Below are positions 8,598 to 41,128 of a stretch of 52,355 nt of DNA, one piece after another. A program made the translations under genes and the position numbers. The notes beneath the pieces are model-generated. The model worked only from the letters and a program-made list of their open reading frames with translations, was not told the origin of the DNA and made no database searches. Origin of the DNA: a virus; the IMG/VR virus record IMGVR_UViG_3300044846_003805, positions 1 through 52,355 of that record; one strand, given 5' to 3'. How positions within the stretch are numbered: position 1 is the stretch's first letter; every line of letters starts with the position of its first letter.

Positions 8598-9401
8598 ATG
8601 ATGAAGGACAAAAATTCGGCAATTCCAATCAACCAAGACGAGATTCAAGTTTACTTGAAAGATATCCGTAAGATTAAAGTAATGACACCTGATAGAGAAA
8701 AAGAACTCTCTGAAATGATATCGAAAGGTGGTTTGTCTGATAAACAAATTCGTAACATCGAACAAGAACTTGTTGAAGGTAACTTACGTTTTGTTATCAC
8801 GGTCGCTAAACAATATCAAAACCAAGGATTACCATTACCTGATTTGATTAATGAGGGTAACTTTGGGTTACTAAAGGCTATCCGTAACTTTGATTGGTCA
8901 AAGAATTTAAGATTTATATCATATGCGGTGTGGTGGGTTAGACAATCTATATTACAATCACTAAATGATAACGCAAGAACTATCCGACTACCTGTTAATG
9001 TTGTTCAGGACTTGTATAAGGCGAAGAAAGAAATTGAAACGTCAGGTGGTAATTTAAGTGATAAATTCCAAAATCTACCATCAATAATTGATTTAGATAT
9101 GAATATCAACGATGAGGGTGATACATTAATCGACATCATTAAAAACGAGGGAGCTGAGATGCCTGACGAGGTTTTCAATGGTCAAGATATTCTAAAAACA
9201 AAGTTAATTGGTTTGTTAGATATCTTAGATGAACGTGAAAAAGTCATCATCGAAGATTATTTTGGATTGACAGGTACGTGTCGAACGTTAGAAGATATTG
9301 GTACTGATTTTAACCTAACTAAAGAACGTGTTAGACAAATAAAAGAAAAAGCGTTGAGGAAACTCAGAAATGAAAGCTCGGTCTTATTTGACTATATGTA
9401 A
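8598..9401 (+). CDS. RpoD-like sigma-70 family factor with shortened region 3
   Basis: 267 residues. Region 1.2 is seen as VYLKDIRKI, and region 2 as NLRFVITVAKQYQNQG, DLINEGNFGLLKAI and FISYAVWWVRQSILQ. Region 4 is LDEREKVIIEDYFG plus the helix-turn-helix LTKERVRQIKEKALRKLRN. Regions 2 and 4 are close to primary sigma factors of Bacteroidota. The segment between RLPVN and region 4 is shorter than in host RpoD and poorly conserved, so region 3 is reduced. It likely redirects host RNA polymerase to phage promoters, perhaps the recurrent ATATTTAT/TATAAATA motif. A strong terminator follows. Confidence 0.88.
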   Translation: MMKDKNSAIPINQDEIQVYLKDIRKIKVMTPDREKELSEMISKGGLSDKQIRNIEQELVEGNLRFVITVAKQYQNQGLPLPDLINEGNFGLLKAIRNFDWSKNLRFISYAVWWVRQSILQSLNDNARTIRLPVNVVQDLYKAKKEIETSGGNLSDKFQNLPSIIDLDMNINDEGDTLIDIIKNEGAEMPDEVFNGQDILKTKLIGLLDILDEREKVIIEDYFGLTGTCRTLEDIGTDFNLTKERVRQIKEKALRKLRNESSVLFDYM

Positions 9402-17509: not shown

Positions 17510-18421
17510 ATGAGTCGTGAGAATTATTACGAAATACTAGGTGTTGATGAAAAGGACAATCAAGACACGATTAAAAAAAAATATAGAAAATTAGCCAAAG
17601 AACATCACCCTGATAAAGGTGGGGATGAAAACTTATTTAAAAGAATATCTGAAGCGTATGACGTATTGGGGGACGACAATAAACGAGCTCAATATGATAG
17701 TCAACGAAATAACCCATTCAGTGGTATGGGTGGTGGTGGATTCAATCCATTTGAACAAATGTTCAATCAGCAAAGACAACAACGACAAGGAGCTCCTGAT
17801 AAAGTAATTGATATTTTAGTAGGTGCGTTAGAGTCGTTTAATGGTTCTGATAAACACATAACATTCCAAAGGAAACATATGTGTAATGATTGTGGTGGGC
17901 AAGGTGGTGATAGACACACTTGTCAACATTGTCACGGTAATGGATTTGTAACTCAAAGAATAGGAACGGGGATGTTTGTACAAATGGTACAATCACATTG
18001 TAATGCCTGTAATGGTCAAGGATTTTCCTACACTAGAGTCTGTCATACTTGTCAAGGTTCGACAACTCAGGAGAAAATCGAAACAGTTAGTATTAAATTA
18101 CCCCACGGAATTGATGATGGTCAGTTTTTGAAATTACAAGGTAAGGGTGATTACTATAAAGGTATTTATGGTAATTTAGTTGTTCGAGTTAGATTAAATC
18201 CTGAAAACGATTTTGAGAAGTTTAATAATGATTTAATTTACAATAAATATTTTGATTTGAATGGGTTAAAAAGTGAATCATTTGAGGTTCCACACCCACA
18301 AGGTGCATTGTCAATAAAAATGCCACCAACGTTTGATACGTCAAAACCCCTAAGAGTTAAATCCAAGGGGTTCAATGGGGGTGATTTATTTGTTAAGTTA
18401 TTTGTAAAGTTTGCTCGTTAA
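17510..18421 (+). CDS. dnaJ: DnaJ/Hsp40 co-chaperone
   Basis: 303 residues with all type I DnaJ parts. There is a J domain with HPD at 33-35 (EHHPDKGGDENLFKRISEAY), a Gly/Phe region (GMGGGGFNPFEQMF) and four zinc knuckles (CNDCGGQG, CQHCHGNG, CNACNGQG, CHTCQGS). A substrate-binding C-terminal domain completes it. It is about 75 residues shorter than host DnaJ, losing part of the C-terminal dimerisation region. It should recruit host DnaK, as phage J proteins do for replication-complex or capsid folding. The gene ends in a palindrome shared with the convergent gene. Confidence 0.9.
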   Translation: MSRENYYEILGVDEKDNQDTIKKKYRKLAKEHHPDKGGDENLFKRISEAYDVLGDDNKRAQYDSQRNNPFSGMGGGGFNPFEQMFNQQRQQRQGAPDKVIDILVGALESFNGSDKHITFQRKHMCNDCGGQGGDRHTCQHCHGNGFVTQRIGTGMFVQMVQSHCNACNGQGFSYTRVCHTCQGSTTQEKIETVSIKLPHGIDDGQFLKLQGKGDYYKGIYGNLVVRVRLNPENDFEKFNNDLIYNKYFDLNGLKSESFEVPHPQGALSIKMPPTFDTSKPLRVKSKGFNGGDLFVKLFVKFAR

Positions 18422-26091: not shown

Positions 26092-27558
26092 ATGAAAAAA
26101 ATTAGATTAACTGAAAGTGGTTTGAAAGGGTTTGTTCGTGCGATTGTTGAACAAGTTGAAGGTGAATATTACCATATGGAACCTGGCCAATTTTTAACGA
26201 TGTTAACTGCCGGTGTTAACCGAATGGATATAGTAACTAAATTAAAACGATTCCAAGGGAAACTTGTGTGGATTGATGGTGATTTGGATTTGTCATCAAA
26301 ACCTATCACAACTTTAGGTAATCTTGCCGGTGTTTCGGGTGATTTAAAATTGGCGAGTTGTAAAAATCTTAAAGATTTGGGTAAATTAAAATATGTTGAG
26401 GGTAAGTTGGACATATCATATTCAAGGGTATCATCAGTAGATGGTGTTGAATTTGGGTCAATATCAGCATACGATTCTGAGTTAGAAAATAAAAAAATAC
26501 GTCAGGAATATAACGCAAAATTTGCCGAAATGCAAGCCGATAGAGAAGAAGGGACATTTGATGACCTTAATAGTAGTGAAGAGGCGGCAAAACGATGGGC
26601 ATTATTAGAATATCTTTCAAATAACGATAGTTCTGTAATGATTAAGACCGATGAGGTCAAAGAAGAATACGATGAGTTAAAACGACGATTAGAACTATTA
26701 CAAGACCGATACAATGAAACTGATGATGACGAAACTGTTGATTCATTACAAGATGAAATTGATGAGGTAGAATCTAGAATTGAAGAAATTGAATCCGAAT
26801 ATTATGACGTTTATGATATTGTTGATTATGGATATAACTCATTTATTGTTCGTGATTTAGGTGGTTTCCGTAATCCTAACGAATATTCTGTTATGACAAC
26901 TGATGAAGCTGATAAAGCGTTAGATGATTATTGGGATAATTACATTGATGATGTAGGGTATGAAAATTTTAGTAAGGACACACTTGAACGTCATATTGAT
27001 GGTGATGATGTTGCTGATGATTTTAAAGATTATTATTATGATGATATTAGTAGTGAACCTCAAGCATATTTTGATTTAAATAACTTAGATTATACCGATG
27101 ACCAAGAACGTGAAATCGCGACTTTACAAGCGTATATTGATGAGTTAGATGTGTACATATCTGAGTTGGAAGAAAAACAATCATCATTAGAGGATGAGAT
27201 TCCTATTGATAGTGACGAGTATTCACCGGCTTATGATGAGATTCAAAATTTAATTGAAAGAGCTGAAGAAAAGAAAGACGAAACTCAAGAAAAAATTGAT
27301 GAGATTGAACCTGAAGTTAGTGAAGATATGATTGAGTCTGAGGTTGAAGATAAATTAGCTGAAATTAGACGAGACCCTTTAGGGTTTTTGCAAGATATGG
27401 GTTATGATAGTAAAACCATATTTAGATATGTTGATGAAAAATCACTTAAAGAAGAATTAATAAGTAATGGTGATTATGGTGATTTGAATAGTTATGATGG
27501 TAGTTATGATGAGATTAATGTCGACGGTACTTACTATGTTGTTATGAGAACTAATTGA
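26092..27558 (+). CDS. Tagged, acidic coiled-coil protein
   Basis: 488 residues. The N-terminus MKKIRLTES carries L-T-E at 6-8 and a second site I-V-E at 18-20 after a short helix (GLKGFVRAIVE), the capsid-targeting pattern of this window. Residues 40-125 contain beta-strand repeats (GDLDLSSKPITTLGNL; GKLDISYSRVSSVDG), followed by two long acidic coiled coils (about 185-245 and 350-430). The C-terminus has an alternating Asp/Tyr-rich region. The start at 26092 fits the tag; a Met five codons upstream lies in the promoter motif. Likely virion-packaged. Confidence 0.6.
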   Translation: MKKIRLTESGLKGFVRAIVEQVEGEYYHMEPGQFLTMLTAGVNRMDIVTKLKRFQGKLVWIDGDLDLSSKPITTLGNLAGVSGDLKLASCKNLKDLGKLKYVEGKLDISYSRVSSVDGVEFGSISAYDSELENKKIRQEYNAKFAEMQADREEGTFDDLNSSEEAAKRWALLEYLSNNDSSVMIKTDEVKEEYDELKRRLELLQDRYNETDDDETVDSLQDEIDEVESRIEEIESEYYDVYDIVDYGYNSFIVRDLGGFRNPNEYSVMTTDEADKALDDYWDNYIDDVGYENFSKDTLERHIDGDDVADDFKDYYYDDISSEPQAYFDLNNLDYTDDQEREIATLQAYIDELDVYISELEEKQSSLEDEIPIDSDEYSPAYDEIQNLIERAEEKKDETQEKIDEIEPEVSEDMIESEVEDKLAEIRRDPLGFLQDMGYDSKTIFRYVDEKSLKEELISNGDYGDLNSYDGSYDEINVDGTYYVVMRTN

Positions 27559-34112: not shown

Positions 34113-35177
34113 ATGAAAGGTATTGTACTACAAGAATCTGAATTTAACAACAGAGTCAAAGAAATATATCGTGAAGAACAATATAAAGTTTTATCAGAAA
34201 AATGGAAAACTTTAAGTAAAAACGAGAGAAAATTTGTTGTTGAATTTTATAAAGCCATCCACCCTGAGAACTCAAAATTGATTAACGAATCTAAATGGTA
34301 TAACACCGTTGGTGATATTGCCGGTATTTTTGACCCAACGGGTGTTATTGATTTAGCAAATGGTATTAGTTATTGGAAACAAGATGATAAATTATTTGCA
34401 ATTTTATCTTGGGTATCGGTAATCCCATTATTGGGTGATGTTATTGCAAAACCTGTTGTTGGTCTTTTAAAATTAGGTGGTGATGCCGTTAAAGGTTTTA
34501 GATATGCCGCTGCGGGTAAAGACGCATTTAAATTGGCTGAGGCGGCTAAAGCGGCTGGTGGTCCTGTTGCTAAATTTGTTGAGAAATCACCAAGTTGGGG
34601 AACTAAATTAGTTGCACTTTTACGTTCATCAGTTGGTAAAATACCATTTCTTAAAAATATTGTTAGTTTGGTTGAGGACTATATTAAGTTATTCACTACC
34701 GCTAGTAAAGAAATGAAGGTTGGTTCTAAATTGGCTAAAGGTCTTGGTGCGGCTGAAAAAGAAACTCTTAAAACGACATTTAAAGGGTTTAGAGAATTTG
34801 GTAACGTTAATTATAATTATACTAAATTTATCACATCTAAAAATGTTTCTTTATGGAATAAATTTGCCGCAGGAGTTCCTCGTTTATTAGGTGGTAATCC
34901 GGCAACAAGAGCTTTAATGAGGAGAACTAAATGGTATCTTGGTTTATTAGATACTTTAGGAATTGTTGATTCAAAAACAACACCTGATGAAGTTTTAAAA
35001 CAATATCCTGAAGAAATTGAGAAATATAATCAAAGTGAAGAGGGTCAAAAAAATTGGGAAGAAGATTTTGGTGATGGGAATGTTGGTGAAACACCAAATA
35101 TTGAAGCACCTAAATCACCATCAAATACAAATAAAGTGGACCCATTTAGTTCATTATTAGGGTCTTTATTTAAATAA
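34113..35177 (+). CDS. Tagged protein with hydrophobic, pre-toxin-like core
   Basis: 354 residues. MKGIVLQES carries L-Q-E at 6-8, the tag pattern. Residues 65-170 contain GDIAGIFDPTGVIDLANG, then FAILSWVSVIPLLGDVIAKP and Ala/Gly-rich helices that could insert in membranes. The DP-TG...IP-x-x-GD pattern resembles pre-toxin or membrane-translocation segments of polymorphic toxins (a resemblance only). The C-terminus is acidic and Pro/Asn-rich. If packaged, it might form a channel or be ejected into the envelope. It precedes the DHH gene by three bases. Confidence 0.6.
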   Translation: MKGIVLQESEFNNRVKEIYREEQYKVLSEKWKTLSKNERKFVVEFYKAIHPENSKLINESKWYNTVGDIAGIFDPTGVIDLANGISYWKQDDKLFAILSWVSVIPLLGDVIAKPVVGLLKLGGDAVKGFRYAAAGKDAFKLAEAAKAAGGPVAKFVEKSPSWGTKLVALLRSSVGKIPFLKNIVSLVEDYIKLFTTASKEMKVGSKLAKGLGAAEKETLKTTFKGFREFGNVNYNYTKFITSKNVSLWNKFAAGVPRLLGGNPATRALMRRTKWYLGLLDTLGIVDSKTTPDEVLKQYPEEIEKYNQSEEGQKNWEEDFGDGNVGETPNIEAPKSPSNTNKVDPFSSLLGSLFK

Positions 35178-35180
35178 TCT

Positions 35181-36587
35181 ATGAAAAAAAGAGTAATATT
35201 AGAATCAGGTCTTAGAGATATTAACGCGATTGCGGATAGATATCAAAAGGCTAAAATATATTTTCACCAAGATTTAGATGGTGTTACAACCGCAATTGCT
35301 ATGAAAGAATACTTGGCACAATACGGAATCAAAACTGTTGATTGTGAAGTAATCCAATATGGTGATAAAGAATGGTCTATAAAGAAACCTGAAGGTAGTG
35401 GTGACGTTATGCCGGTGTTAGTGGATTTTGCTCACGGAAAACCAATGTTTGTTATACATACTGACCACCACGATACTCAAGCGGGTGTTGATGATAAAAC
35501 ATCGACTAACTTTAAAGCGTCACGTTCAAATGTGGAAACTGTATCACAAACAATATCAACTAAAGAGTTATTCCCAAGTGATGACCTTTTATTGATTTCA
35601 ACAGTTGACTCAGCAAACTTTGCACCACAAGATATTAGTGTTGATGAGGTTATCAATTATTTATTTAAAATAGATAAAGATAAGTCATTACAAAAAAATA
35701 AAATGGCGATGGGATTTGTGTGTAACAAATTACTATTGGCGTTCAAAAACAAACCAGGTTTCTTAGAAGAGTTGGTTATGAAATCAACACCTTCATTATT
35801 GAATATCTTACATAATATCAAACGTATTATGGTTGAAAAAGGTTTTGCTCCTGTTGAACAATTAAAGAAAAACCAAGAGAACTATATTGAGTCGATGAAA
35901 AATCATCCAAACGTAAAAGTATTGGATAATGTTATTGTTCAATATGGTGGTGGTAATATGATGAAACCGGGGTCTTACGATAGATATACCCCATTCAAAA
36001 ATAATCCTGAAGCTGACTTCATAGTTATTGCTTGGCCATTAGGATTGGTACAAGCGTCTTGTAATCCATACAAAAAAGATAGAGCATTGAAAGGTGTGAA
36101 CTTAGGGGAGATTAAAGATGAGGTTTTAGCTAAATGGGAATCGCAATTAAAAGATAGACAAATACCTTTATCAACAATTAAATGGGTTTCAGAATCATCA
36201 GTTGGTGAGGAGTCAGTTGGGTTTACATTCAAAGACTTTGTTGCACTATATGGTGATAAATTTAAGTCAATGGGTAATGGTAAAGAACTATTGACTATCG
36301 TTGGGGACATAATGTCAAAACCATATAAATCGTTGAGTGAAAAACAAAAGGCGATTATGGAAAAGATATCTATCACTGCTTGGGATTTGATTCAGGCGAA
36401 TAGTGGGGGACATAAATGTATCACTAATATATCAGGACTTAATTATTTAGGAAAACCTAGTCAAAAATCATCGGGAGGTGGTGGAGGTTACCAACGAAGT
36501 GAAGAAGATTCACCGGCAGTTAAGTTCACTAAAATGATTCAAAATGAATTCGTAAGAGTTCTACAAAGTAAAATAAACGAAGGTTAA
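35181..36587 (+). CDS. Tagged DHH-DHHA1 family phosphoesterase
   Basis: 468 residues. MKKRVILES carries I-L-E at 6-8, the tag pattern. The DHH core follows: YFHQDLDG (H29, D31, D33), VDFAHG (D82), TDHHDTQ (D95-H97) and STVDSAN (D143), the usual Mn-binding set. NSGGHKC (G409-H411) is the DHHA1 substrate loop. Relatives include RecJ (ssDNA exonuclease) and NrnA/GdpP (short oligonucleotide and cyclic dinucleotide hydrolases). The middle region (190-400) is larger than in NrnA. A packaged enzyme of this type could destroy nucleotide alarm signals on entry, which is a hypothesis. Confidence 0.8.
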   Translation: MKKRVILESGLRDINAIADRYQKAKIYFHQDLDGVTTAIAMKEYLAQYGIKTVDCEVIQYGDKEWSIKKPEGSGDVMPVLVDFAHGKPMFVIHTDHHDTQAGVDDKTSTNFKASRSNVETVSQTISTKELFPSDDLLLISTVDSANFAPQDISVDEVINYLFKIDKDKSLQKNKMAMGFVCNKLLLAFKNKPGFLEELVMKSTPSLLNILHNIKRIMVEKGFAPVEQLKKNQENYIESMKNHPNVKVLDNVIVQYGGGNMMKPGSYDRYTPFKNNPEADFIVIAWPLGLVQASCNPYKKDRALKGVNLGEIKDEVLAKWESQLKDRQIPLSTIKWVSESSVGEESVGFTFKDFVALYGDKFKSMGNGKELLTIVGDIMSKPYKSLSEKQKAIMEKISITAWDLIQANSGGHKCITNISGLNYLGKPSQKSSGGGGGYQRSEEDSPAVKFTKMIQNEFVRVLQSKINEG

Positions 36588-36925
36588 AATATAATGGTAT
36601 CGTCAAGTTTAATATCTAAACGTTTGCACGTTCCACCTTTAACCTCTAATATCATATCACCTTCACCACAATAGTTTCCACAATCATCTGATTTACAAGG
36701 GTTACAATTGTGGTGGATGTTGAAAATCTTACCATCTTTGATGAAGATAATATCCAATGGGATAATACAATCCTTCATCCAAAAACAATGAATACCTTCA
36801 TTCATTAAGAATAACATTCCATTGAAAGTTTTGTCAAATTTTTTACCCATCATACCTTTTTGAGTCTGACCTGGTGTCATCATTACTTTGACTTTAAACT
36901 TATTATCGTTGATTTTAATTACCAT
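36584..36925 (-). CDS. DUF192 family protein
   Basis: 113 residues. KGMMGKKFDKTFNGMLFLM, then CFWMKDCIIPLDIIFI and ILEVKGG match DUF192 (PF02643), with the family's WMK(N/D)xxxPLD motif. An insert with four Cys (CNPCKSDDCGNYC) could bind zinc. DUF192 proteins have no settled function. It is convergent with the DHH gene with a four-base TTAA overlap of stop codons and has its own minus-strand late-like motif. Confidence 0.85.
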   Translation of the reverse strand: MVIKINDNKFKVKVMMTPGQTQKGMMGKKFDKTFNGMLFLMNEGIHCFWMKDCIIPLDIIFIKDGKIFNIHHNCNPCKSDDCGNYCGEGDMILEVKGGTCKRLDIKLDDTIIF

Positions 36926-36960: not shown

Positions 36961-37051
36961 ATATTTATATTTTACACAAAATACCATTAACCCCTTTCTT
37001 ACTATGGTTGAAAAAAATCCCAATAGAGTAAATCTTTATTGGGGTTTTTTT
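36961..37051 (+). ncRNA. Candidate short transcript between late motif and terminator
   Basis: A plus-strand ATATTTAT (36961-36968) is followed about 45 bases later by a terminator (stem 37013-37025 with 37037-37049, one G-T pair, then T-run). No gene lies between, so a short RNA of about 75 bases could be made. Alternatively the motif is chance and the terminator only blocks read-through. Confidence 0.3.
37013..37051 (+). terminator. Rho-independent terminator upstream of smpB
   Basis: A 13-bp stem with one G-T pair (37013-37025 with 37037-37049), an 11-base loop and a T-run. Confidence 0.75.
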
Positions 37052-37053
37052 AT

Positions 37054-37061
37054 TATATTTG
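37054..37061 (+). promoter_or_regulatory. -7 box for smpB, leaderless type
   Basis: TATATTTG, an exact TAnnTTTG match, five bases before the ATG and three bases after the terminator T-run. The -33 region is occupied by the hairpin. Confidence 0.55.
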
Positions 37062-37066
37062 TTCAT

Positions 37067-37501
37067 ATGAAAAATTCCGTTAACATAGTAAACCGAAAGG
37101 TTAAGTTTGAATATCACTTTGTTGAGACATTTATCGTTGGGTTAAAACTCCAAGGGTCTGAAGTTAAAGCAATTACCAACAACTTAGTTTCAATGGTGGA
37201 TACCTATTGTTATTTTAATAAAGGTGAGTTATTTGTTAAAGGAATGAATGTTACGAGTAATAATGTTGCATATAGTCACGAGTCTAACCGGGAACGTAAA
37301 CTCTTAATGAAGAAAAAGGAGTTAAGGAAATTAGAAAAAGAATTAATTAATGGTTTAACGATTGTCCCATATCGTCTTTTTCGAAATGAACGTGGGTTAA
37401 TCAAAATGGAAATTGTTTTGGCTAAAGGTAAAAACTTATACGATAAACGAAATTCAATCAAAGAGAGAGATATTAATCGTGAAATGATGCGTGGTATTTG
37501 A
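37067..37501 (+). CDS. smpB: SmpB-like tmRNA-binding protein
   Basis: 144 residues. NRKVKFEYHFVETFIVGLKL, then GSEVKAI, LFVKGMNV and RERKLLMKKKELRKLEKEL give the core fold. It continues GLTIVPYRLFRNERGLIKME, AKGKNLYDKRNSIKERD and RE. These are the landmarks of SmpB, the partner of tmRNA in ribosome rescue. The basic C-terminal tail ends soon after DKRxxIKERD, as in short SmpB proteins. No tmRNA gene is seen, so it would use the host tmRNA or block it. The ATG at 37067 follows the -7 box by five bases; an upstream frame would run through the terminator. Confidence 0.9.
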   Translation: MKNSVNIVNRKVKFEYHFVETFIVGLKLQGSEVKAITNNLVSMVDTYCYFNKGELFVKGMNVTSNNVAYSHESNRERKLLMKKKELRKLEKELINGLTIVPYRLFRNERGLIKMEIVLAKGKNLYDKRNSIKERDINREMMRGI

Positions 37502-40816: not shown

Positions 40817-41128
40817 ATGGGTAATATCATTATAACTGAAAAACAATTAGAAAGACTTACTAAGAAAATCAAAAAGTCAATTAATGAGAATCAGGAGGAA
40901 GGTTCTTATATGGCTAAGCAACAACTTTATACTATTGCTACATTGGCTAAAACAATGTGGGAGAAAATGGAGGAAGGTGAACAACTTGAAGATTGGATGG
41001 AAACTAAAATTGCTCAGGCTGAACAAAGTATAACTTCTGTGGTTAACAATTTTATGTACAAAGAAGTTGATGGTGGTCTTGACGGAACAAAGAGTATTGA
41101 TTTTAATGAAATTGTAATTGGTCAATAA
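40817..41128 (+). CDS. Tagged small helical virion-type protein
   Basis: 103 residues. MGNIIITEKQ carries I-T-E at 6-8, then a basic helix and a second site I-N-E at 22-24. The mature part (YMAKQQLYTIATLAKTMWEK; LEDWMETKIAQAEQSI) matches a helical domain frequent in structural proteins of T4-like environmental phages (LxxWxxxKIxxAxxxI). Probably packaged or capsid-associated. Confidence 0.6.
   Translation: MGNIIITEKQLERLTKKIKKSINENQEEGSYMAKQQLYTIATLAKTMWEKMEEGEQLEDWMETKIAQAEQSITSVVNNFMYKEVDGGLDGTKSIDFNEIVIGQ

Follow-up and report, generated by a model that had tools for sequence, protein, structure and literature searches.

Background

In phage T4, the IP proteins and Alt reach the prohead by means of short N-terminal CTS peptides (~10-20 residues); gp21 removes these peptides, and the proteins that carried them enter the host (PMC7411985; PMC9958956). 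Related prohead proteases cut after Glu (PMC5694885). Among DHH proteins, the motif I ligands of drRecJ are D79, D81 and D83, and RecJ motif VI contains Ser371/Arg373 (PMC4846377); in NrnA motif I comprises H34, D38 and D40 (PMC11229311), and the NrnB-type enzymes tested are 3'-5' exoribonucleases that do not cleave c-di-AMP (PMC12709177).

Here we analyze an IMG/VR virus record of 52,355 bases (hereafter the window), whose source, in the explanation that we propose, is a large aquatic bacterial virus, namely a T4-like jumbo phage. It encodes a DHH-DHHA1 phosphoesterase with a short N-terminal tag, along with other proteins that start in a similar way (Table 1).

Table 1. Features of the tagged DHH gene and of other tagged genes in the window
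Feature	Coordinates	Strand	Remarks
Tagged DHH-DHHA1 phosphoesterase CDS	35181..36587	+	ATG start, 468 aa; relatives, predicted fold
N-terminal tag, residues 1-8 (MKKRVILE)	35181..35204	+	proposed prohead-protease cut after Glu8 (I-L-E^S)
Predicted mature enzyme, residues 9-468	35205..36584	+	inferred from tag; conserved core from G10
DHH motif I, HQDLDG (29-34)	35265..35282	+	H29, D31, D33, G34 invariant
DHH motif II, VLVDFAHG (79-86), putative metal ligand D82	35415..35438	+	invariant
DHH motif III, D95-H96-H97	35463..35471	+	invariant
DHH motif IV, VDSA, putative metal ligand D143	35604..35615	+	D143 invariant
DHHA1 motif VI equivalent, QASCNP (291-296)	36051..36068	+	Q291, S293, N295, P296 invariant
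DHHA1 loop, SGGH (408-411)	36402..36413	+	S408-G409-G410-H411 invariant
Upstream neighbour, 354 aa, tagged MKGIVLQESEF...	34113..35177	+	one hydrophobic stretch, residues 94-112
Tagged protein MKKIRLTESGLKGFVRAIVE^Q	26092..27558	+	tagged if ATG at 26092 is the start
Small tagged protein MGNIIITEKQLERLTKKIKKSINE^N	40817..41128	+	conserved downstream of the DHH gene, 50 loci
Tagged protein MKHKIIITESQYRVLMRNINE^Q, 398 aa	49919..51115	+	no known family matched

A divergent DHH-DHHA1 protein

Examination of the gene product, whose N-terminus reads MKKRVILESGLRDIN, bears out the original prediction of an ORF at 35181-36587 that begins with MKKRVILES and carries all DHH motifs (HxDxDG, and DHH at 95-97): the metal-binding motifs I-IV, including the D-H-H, which falls at exactly these residue numbers, are present and place the protein in the superfamily. 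The catalytic positions of motifs I-IV and the SGGH are invariant in an alignment of the window protein with 19 diverse relatives (n=20), which include the two most distant ones at 36-38% identity. By analogy with RecJ, H29, D31, D33, D82, H96 and D143 would serve as metal ligands. The textbook DHHA1 motif is GGGHxxAAG; the expected GGH loop is found here within SGGHKCITNISG, which retains the GGH and otherwise departs from that pattern, and the fold match covers both domains. The equivalence of QASCNP to RecJ motif VI was judged by eye.

The Pfam DHH profile matches all 20 members scanned (best E 1.1e-5); the window protein itself scores 19.3 bits (E 0.0014) against a curated cut-off of 28.1 and is in this sense divergent. 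Its AlphaFold2 model (pLDDT 75, pTM 0.75) recovered 27 matches in the PDB by Foldseek at E<=1e-3 (range 1.7e-5 to 1e-3), all of them DHH-DHHA1 proteins except for the DHH-superfamily pyrophosphatase 1k23. The top match is the pGpG phosphodiesterase PggH, and the others include Pyrococcus RecJ, Methanothermobacter RecJ-Cdc45, MjRecJ2, pAp phosphatase, bacterial RecJ and family II pyrophosphatase. Together the invariant motifs and these matches corroborate the predicted identity as a DHH-DHHA1 enzyme, while the low TM-scores (0.2-0.4) indicate that no solved enzyme is close. Searches of the PDB with phmmer and profiles returned no DHH match, and a search of PHROGs returned no match for the protein; weak Pfam and PDB matches to Calmod_bind_C, Lem4 and BH0236 were dismissed as chance. 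NCBIfam gave weak hits only, all to RecJ families, and the bacterial RecJ equivalog profile TIGR00644 scored 11.5 bits against a cut-off of 396.9; the length of 468 residues leaves no room for an OB domain. In BFVD the two near matches (57% and 41% identity) come from uncultured phages and are themselves uncharacterised; the DHH proteins of other jumbo phages stand at 11-14%. Since nothing characterised is close, the protein is, by sequence comparison, a member of a distinct DHH-DHHA1 subfamily that has no characterised representative.

Two homologues show further architectural variation. On a 229-kb phage contig, a homologue with 68% identity and a full tag is fused to a C-terminal SET domain (L290:2450-4696; PF00856, E 7.9e-9), and in that of a 635-kb phage an insert resembling a winged helix separates the DHH half from the DHHA1 half (L082:11968-13959).

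Phyletic distribution

At least 598 relatives occur in viral contigs, more than 590 contigs of uncultured phages encoding one, with ~70% identity over the best 80 of these hundreds of contigs. Distant relatives are found in huge phages of 283-735 kb; among 50,697 phage records only 4 match, all of them huge uncultured phages of 635-735 kb. A genome collection yielded just two matches, a 283-kb contig, which is phage-like in that it also encodes gp23 and a prohead protease, and a single Myxococcales MAG from a phylum in which 2 of 237 genomes match, one of them at E 9.9e-4; in view of this a cellular origin was rejected. The copy in the Myxococcales MAG (L099:5824-7488) starts with what appears by eye to be a Sec signal peptide, and for this reason that enzyme may act outside the cytoplasm. 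Nine contigs, all possibly fragments, were chosen by their capsid protein alone: the gene is present on those of 272 kb and 229 kb and absent from one of 296 kb and from six of 74-90 kb, i.e. it is found on two of the three that exceed 200 kb.

The N-terminal tag

In an alignment of 80 distinct sequences anchored at the catalytic histidine, every one has Glu at residue 8, residue 6 is Ile in 61 and Leu in 19, and residue 7 is variable, such that all 80 share a short N-terminal peptide ending in hydrophobic-x-Glu. With this family-wide conservation, the packaging-like tag of the original prediction proves to be more than a chance resemblance. Glu8, Ser9 and Gly10 are encoded by differing synonymous codons among these sequences, which indicates that it is the protein sequence of the tag that is kept. 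In the AlphaFold2 model residues 1-10 have a pLDDT below 50.

A tag is present in every phage relative examined, being exchanged in some for longer tags or for T4-CTS-like peptides. Full-length tags are found in the relatives L005, L006, L007, L012, L289 and L290; comparison of those from L005 (MKIKLTESKYNNIIKRIIVE^SG), L006 (MKKIVKLTESELTQVIKRMITE^SG) and L012 (MKIIITESQYKQLIKE^SG) with those from the above 272- and 229-kb contigs (G016, MKNLIRRIIKEETTKLLNE^SG, and G017, MKIIITESQYRQIIKE^SG) reveals that the length differs and the end is constant. The huge-phage homologues have another leader (MISKYNQFINE^EVG, MLRKYGQFINE^EVG), and the most distant of them, translated from a TTG start, begins with MIKEFHNFALNE^E; we take these leaders to resemble the short capsid-targeting peptide of T4. 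A search of the literature for this tag sequence turned up word fragments only and no match.

Other tagged proteins and gene neighborhood

The strict form of the tag pattern is seen in 8.4% of N-termini versus 1.4% at internal Met when the window and the 80 loci are taken together (152 protein families), and tag-like N-termini make up 12% of the ORFs of a 282-kb relative contig versus 3-5% at internal Met. The short pattern alone yields false positives, and a match at the N-terminus of the ribonucleotide reductase small subunit was rejected as chance.

The immediate upstream neighbour of the DHH gene carries a tag in 76 of the 80 loci; 48 of these tagged genes are like the one in the window, and the remaining 28 code for another small protein. 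The window version has no Pfam match and is a candidate co-packaged, membrane-active internal protein. The tagged protein encoded at 26092 has an orthologue with a full tag at position 101242 of the 282-kb contig. That contig also encodes a thioredoxin that bears the whole of the tag, MKKVITLTENDLVRLIKKVISE (L191:18394-18774; PF00085, E 1.1e-21), and a tagged protein with matches to L,D-transpeptidase (YkuD) and Tlde1, possibly a head-packaged cell-wall enzyme (L195:5326-6141). Elsewhere, four tandem paralogues start with the tag-like MKIIITENQYELLK and apparently result from a local expansion (L192, G009:160894-163323).

Directly downstream of the DHH gene, on the opposite strand, lies a gene for a DUF192 protein (36584-36925, E 3.3e-23) that is conserved in 76 loci. 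The window also codes for a phage-encoded SmpB near the DHH locus (37004-37501; PF01668, E 2.9e-41), and no tmRNA was found in it; Pfam further identifies a sigma-70 factor (8598-9401) and a DnaJ homologue (17510-18421).

Head genes of relatives

No head genes were recognised in the 52-kb window fragment itself. They are seen on two contigs of 282 and 261 kb whose DHH gene is ~70% identical to that of the window: on both, PF03420 marks a gp21-type prohead protease (E 4.3e-25 and 2.4e-24, respectively), and the gp23 capsid protein that accompanies it (E 2.2e-65 and 4.2e-63) has a propeptide-like end, ASFLINE^ATSEG, with the same hydrophobic-x-Glu site as the tag. By position and appearance only, the adjoining genes look like those for scaffold, portal and terminase. 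In 13 relatives the capsid protein begins MGALLESGL (MGALLE^SG) and has a propeptide-like end of the form SFLINE-A, SHLINE-A or SYLINE-A, and in the huge phages QINE-N or SINE-N occupies the equivalent place. For freshwater jumbo phages in which terminase, portal, protease and capsid genes form a similar block, the predicted hosts are Bacteroidetes (PMC9723584); the window may belong to that group.

Proposed packaging and function

The tag resembles the head-loading labels of T4, which makes it probable that the enzyme enters the host by injection together with the DNA of the virus. We favor, as the better-than-even reading, that the DHH protein is an internal head protein that is cleaved after Glu8, ejected with the DNA, and hydrolyses phosphodiester bonds in the host. 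The eight-residue tag would bring the enzyme to the prohead's scaffold core, where the gp21-type protease of the phage would cut after Glu8 (I/L-x-E^S) to leave a mature enzyme starting at Ser9. This would remain amid the packaged DNA and be ejected along with it; in the host, two metal ions held by the six ligands named above would support phosphodiester hydrolysis early in infection, ahead of new phage protein synthesis. Because a literature search found no virion proteomics for this phage group, we infer packaging by comparison. The original prediction had a pre-loaded enzyme delivered with the DNA: the likeness of its tag to a prohead-targeting, protease-removed peptide stands, in light of the conservation, the interchangeable leaders, and the gp21-type protease and matching capsid site of relatives, and presence in the virion and injection are predictions of this reading. 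The packaging reading is well supported by these comparisons, if unproven.

As in its structural relatives, the substrate of the enzyme is most probably a single strand or a short oligonucleotide. The motif I spacing, H29-x-D31-x-D33, is that of drRecJ, with His in first place, rather than the H-x3-D-x-D of NrnA; together with the data on NrnB-type enzymes this inclines us to such substrates, with cyclic ones as a possibility. Somewhat short of an even chance, we think, is the more specific proposal that a packaged RecJ-like or nanoRNase enzyme serves nucleic-acid turnover early in infection, either trimming DNA ends or breaking host oligonucleotides down to nucleotides. Archaeal RecJ, RecJ-Cdc45, MjRecJ2 and the pGpG-specific PggH are among the best fold matches and, like the motif I spacing and the uniformly RecJ-type NCBIfam hits, point in this direction; an enzyme specific for ssDNA or oligonucleotides could also share the head with dsDNA. 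However, the OB-fold domain of bacterial RecJ is absent, Asn295 replaces the motif VI Arg, and the identity is too low for substrate specificity to be transferred.

A less likely alternative is that the enzyme is an ordinary, unpackaged intracellular phage nuclease, the N-terminus of which is part of the fold or mediates some other interaction. Packaging is indeed deduced indirectly, and some other proteins have chance matches that look like short tags; but the tag is disordered in the AlphaFold2 model, its end remains hydrophobic-x-E even as its length and type differ among homologues, and it is common to many unrelated proteins, including thioredoxin and the start of the capsid protein.

The original prediction also raised a pre-loaded counter-defence role against the alarms of CBASS-like or similar systems. 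In the form considered here, the ejected enzyme would destroy the cyclic di- or oligonucleotide alarms of CBASS, type III CRISPR and related systems before effector activation; this is possible but not favored, and we regard it as improbable. Cyclic dinucleotides and type III CRISPR messengers are among the substrates that DHH-DHHA1 enzymes can cleave, countering of cyclic-nucleotide signals has already been proposed for other jumbo-phage DHH phosphodiesterases (PMC7824862), T4 IPI* is a known case of an anti-defence protein that is ejected (PMC3012670), and a small-molecule substrate would spare the packaged genome. Against this, motif I is spaced as in RecJ and not as in NrnA (PMC11229311; PMC4846377), c-di-AMP was not cleaved by the NrnB-type enzymes tested (PMC12709177), and the gene is strongly conserved across the best 80 of hundreds of contigs, unlike typically variable anti-defence genes; the absence of a PADLOC match is a weaker point, since PADLOC catalogues defence rather than anti-defence. 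Least probable of all is the composite scheme in which jumbo phages of this group load unrelated enzymes (the DHH nuclease, thioredoxin, L,D-transpeptidase and many small orphans) through one cleavable tag, and in which the widely conserved DHH enzyme, loaded beforehand, erases host nucleotide alarms to protect the genome before phage gene expression.

If the DHH protein is indeed an internal head protein ejected with the DNA, an abundant group of uncultured jumbo phages would deliver a nuclease or phosphodiesterase together with its genome, and the tag would make the packaged proteome of such phages readable from sequence alone. Predictions follow on the protein content of the head, on the cleavage sites of these proteins, and on the ability of a pre-loaded enzyme to weaken host defence early on; the sequences also define a DHH-DHHA1 subfamily with no characterised member.

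Comparison with known systems

Like T4 IPI-IPIII and Alt, the proteins described here share a short N-terminal peptide ending in hydrophobic-x-Glu and are otherwise unrelated, and in both cases the phages have a gp21-type protease and a gp23-type capsid protein. They differ in that the cargo here is a DHH-DHHA1 enzyme whose packaging is predicted from sequence, and in that the tag of the window group is distinct in sequence from the T4 CTS, the leader of the huge-phage homologues being the one that resembles it.

With archaeal RecJ, GAN and RecJ-Cdc45 and with bacterial RecJ, which are among its best structural matches at ~12% identity, the window protein shares the DHH-DHHA1 fold, the residues of motifs I-IV and the RecJ spacing. 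Unlike RecJ, it lacks the OB fold, has Asn295 for the motif VI Arg, and, between this motif and the GGH loop, contains a mostly helical insertion of ~95 residues. Its stand-alone DHH-DHHA1 architecture is that of NrnA/GdpP/CnpB, NrnB and PggH, the last being the closest by Foldseek, though its motif I spacing differs from that of NrnA. The AR9 'NrnB' and the PhiEaH1 phosphohydrolase of jumbo phages belong to the same superfamily by their BFVD matches, but at 11-14% identity they represent a different subfamily. T4 Acb1, finally, is comparable as a phage phosphodiesterase that acts on nucleotide signals, and its fold is reportedly unrelated to DHH-DHHA1.
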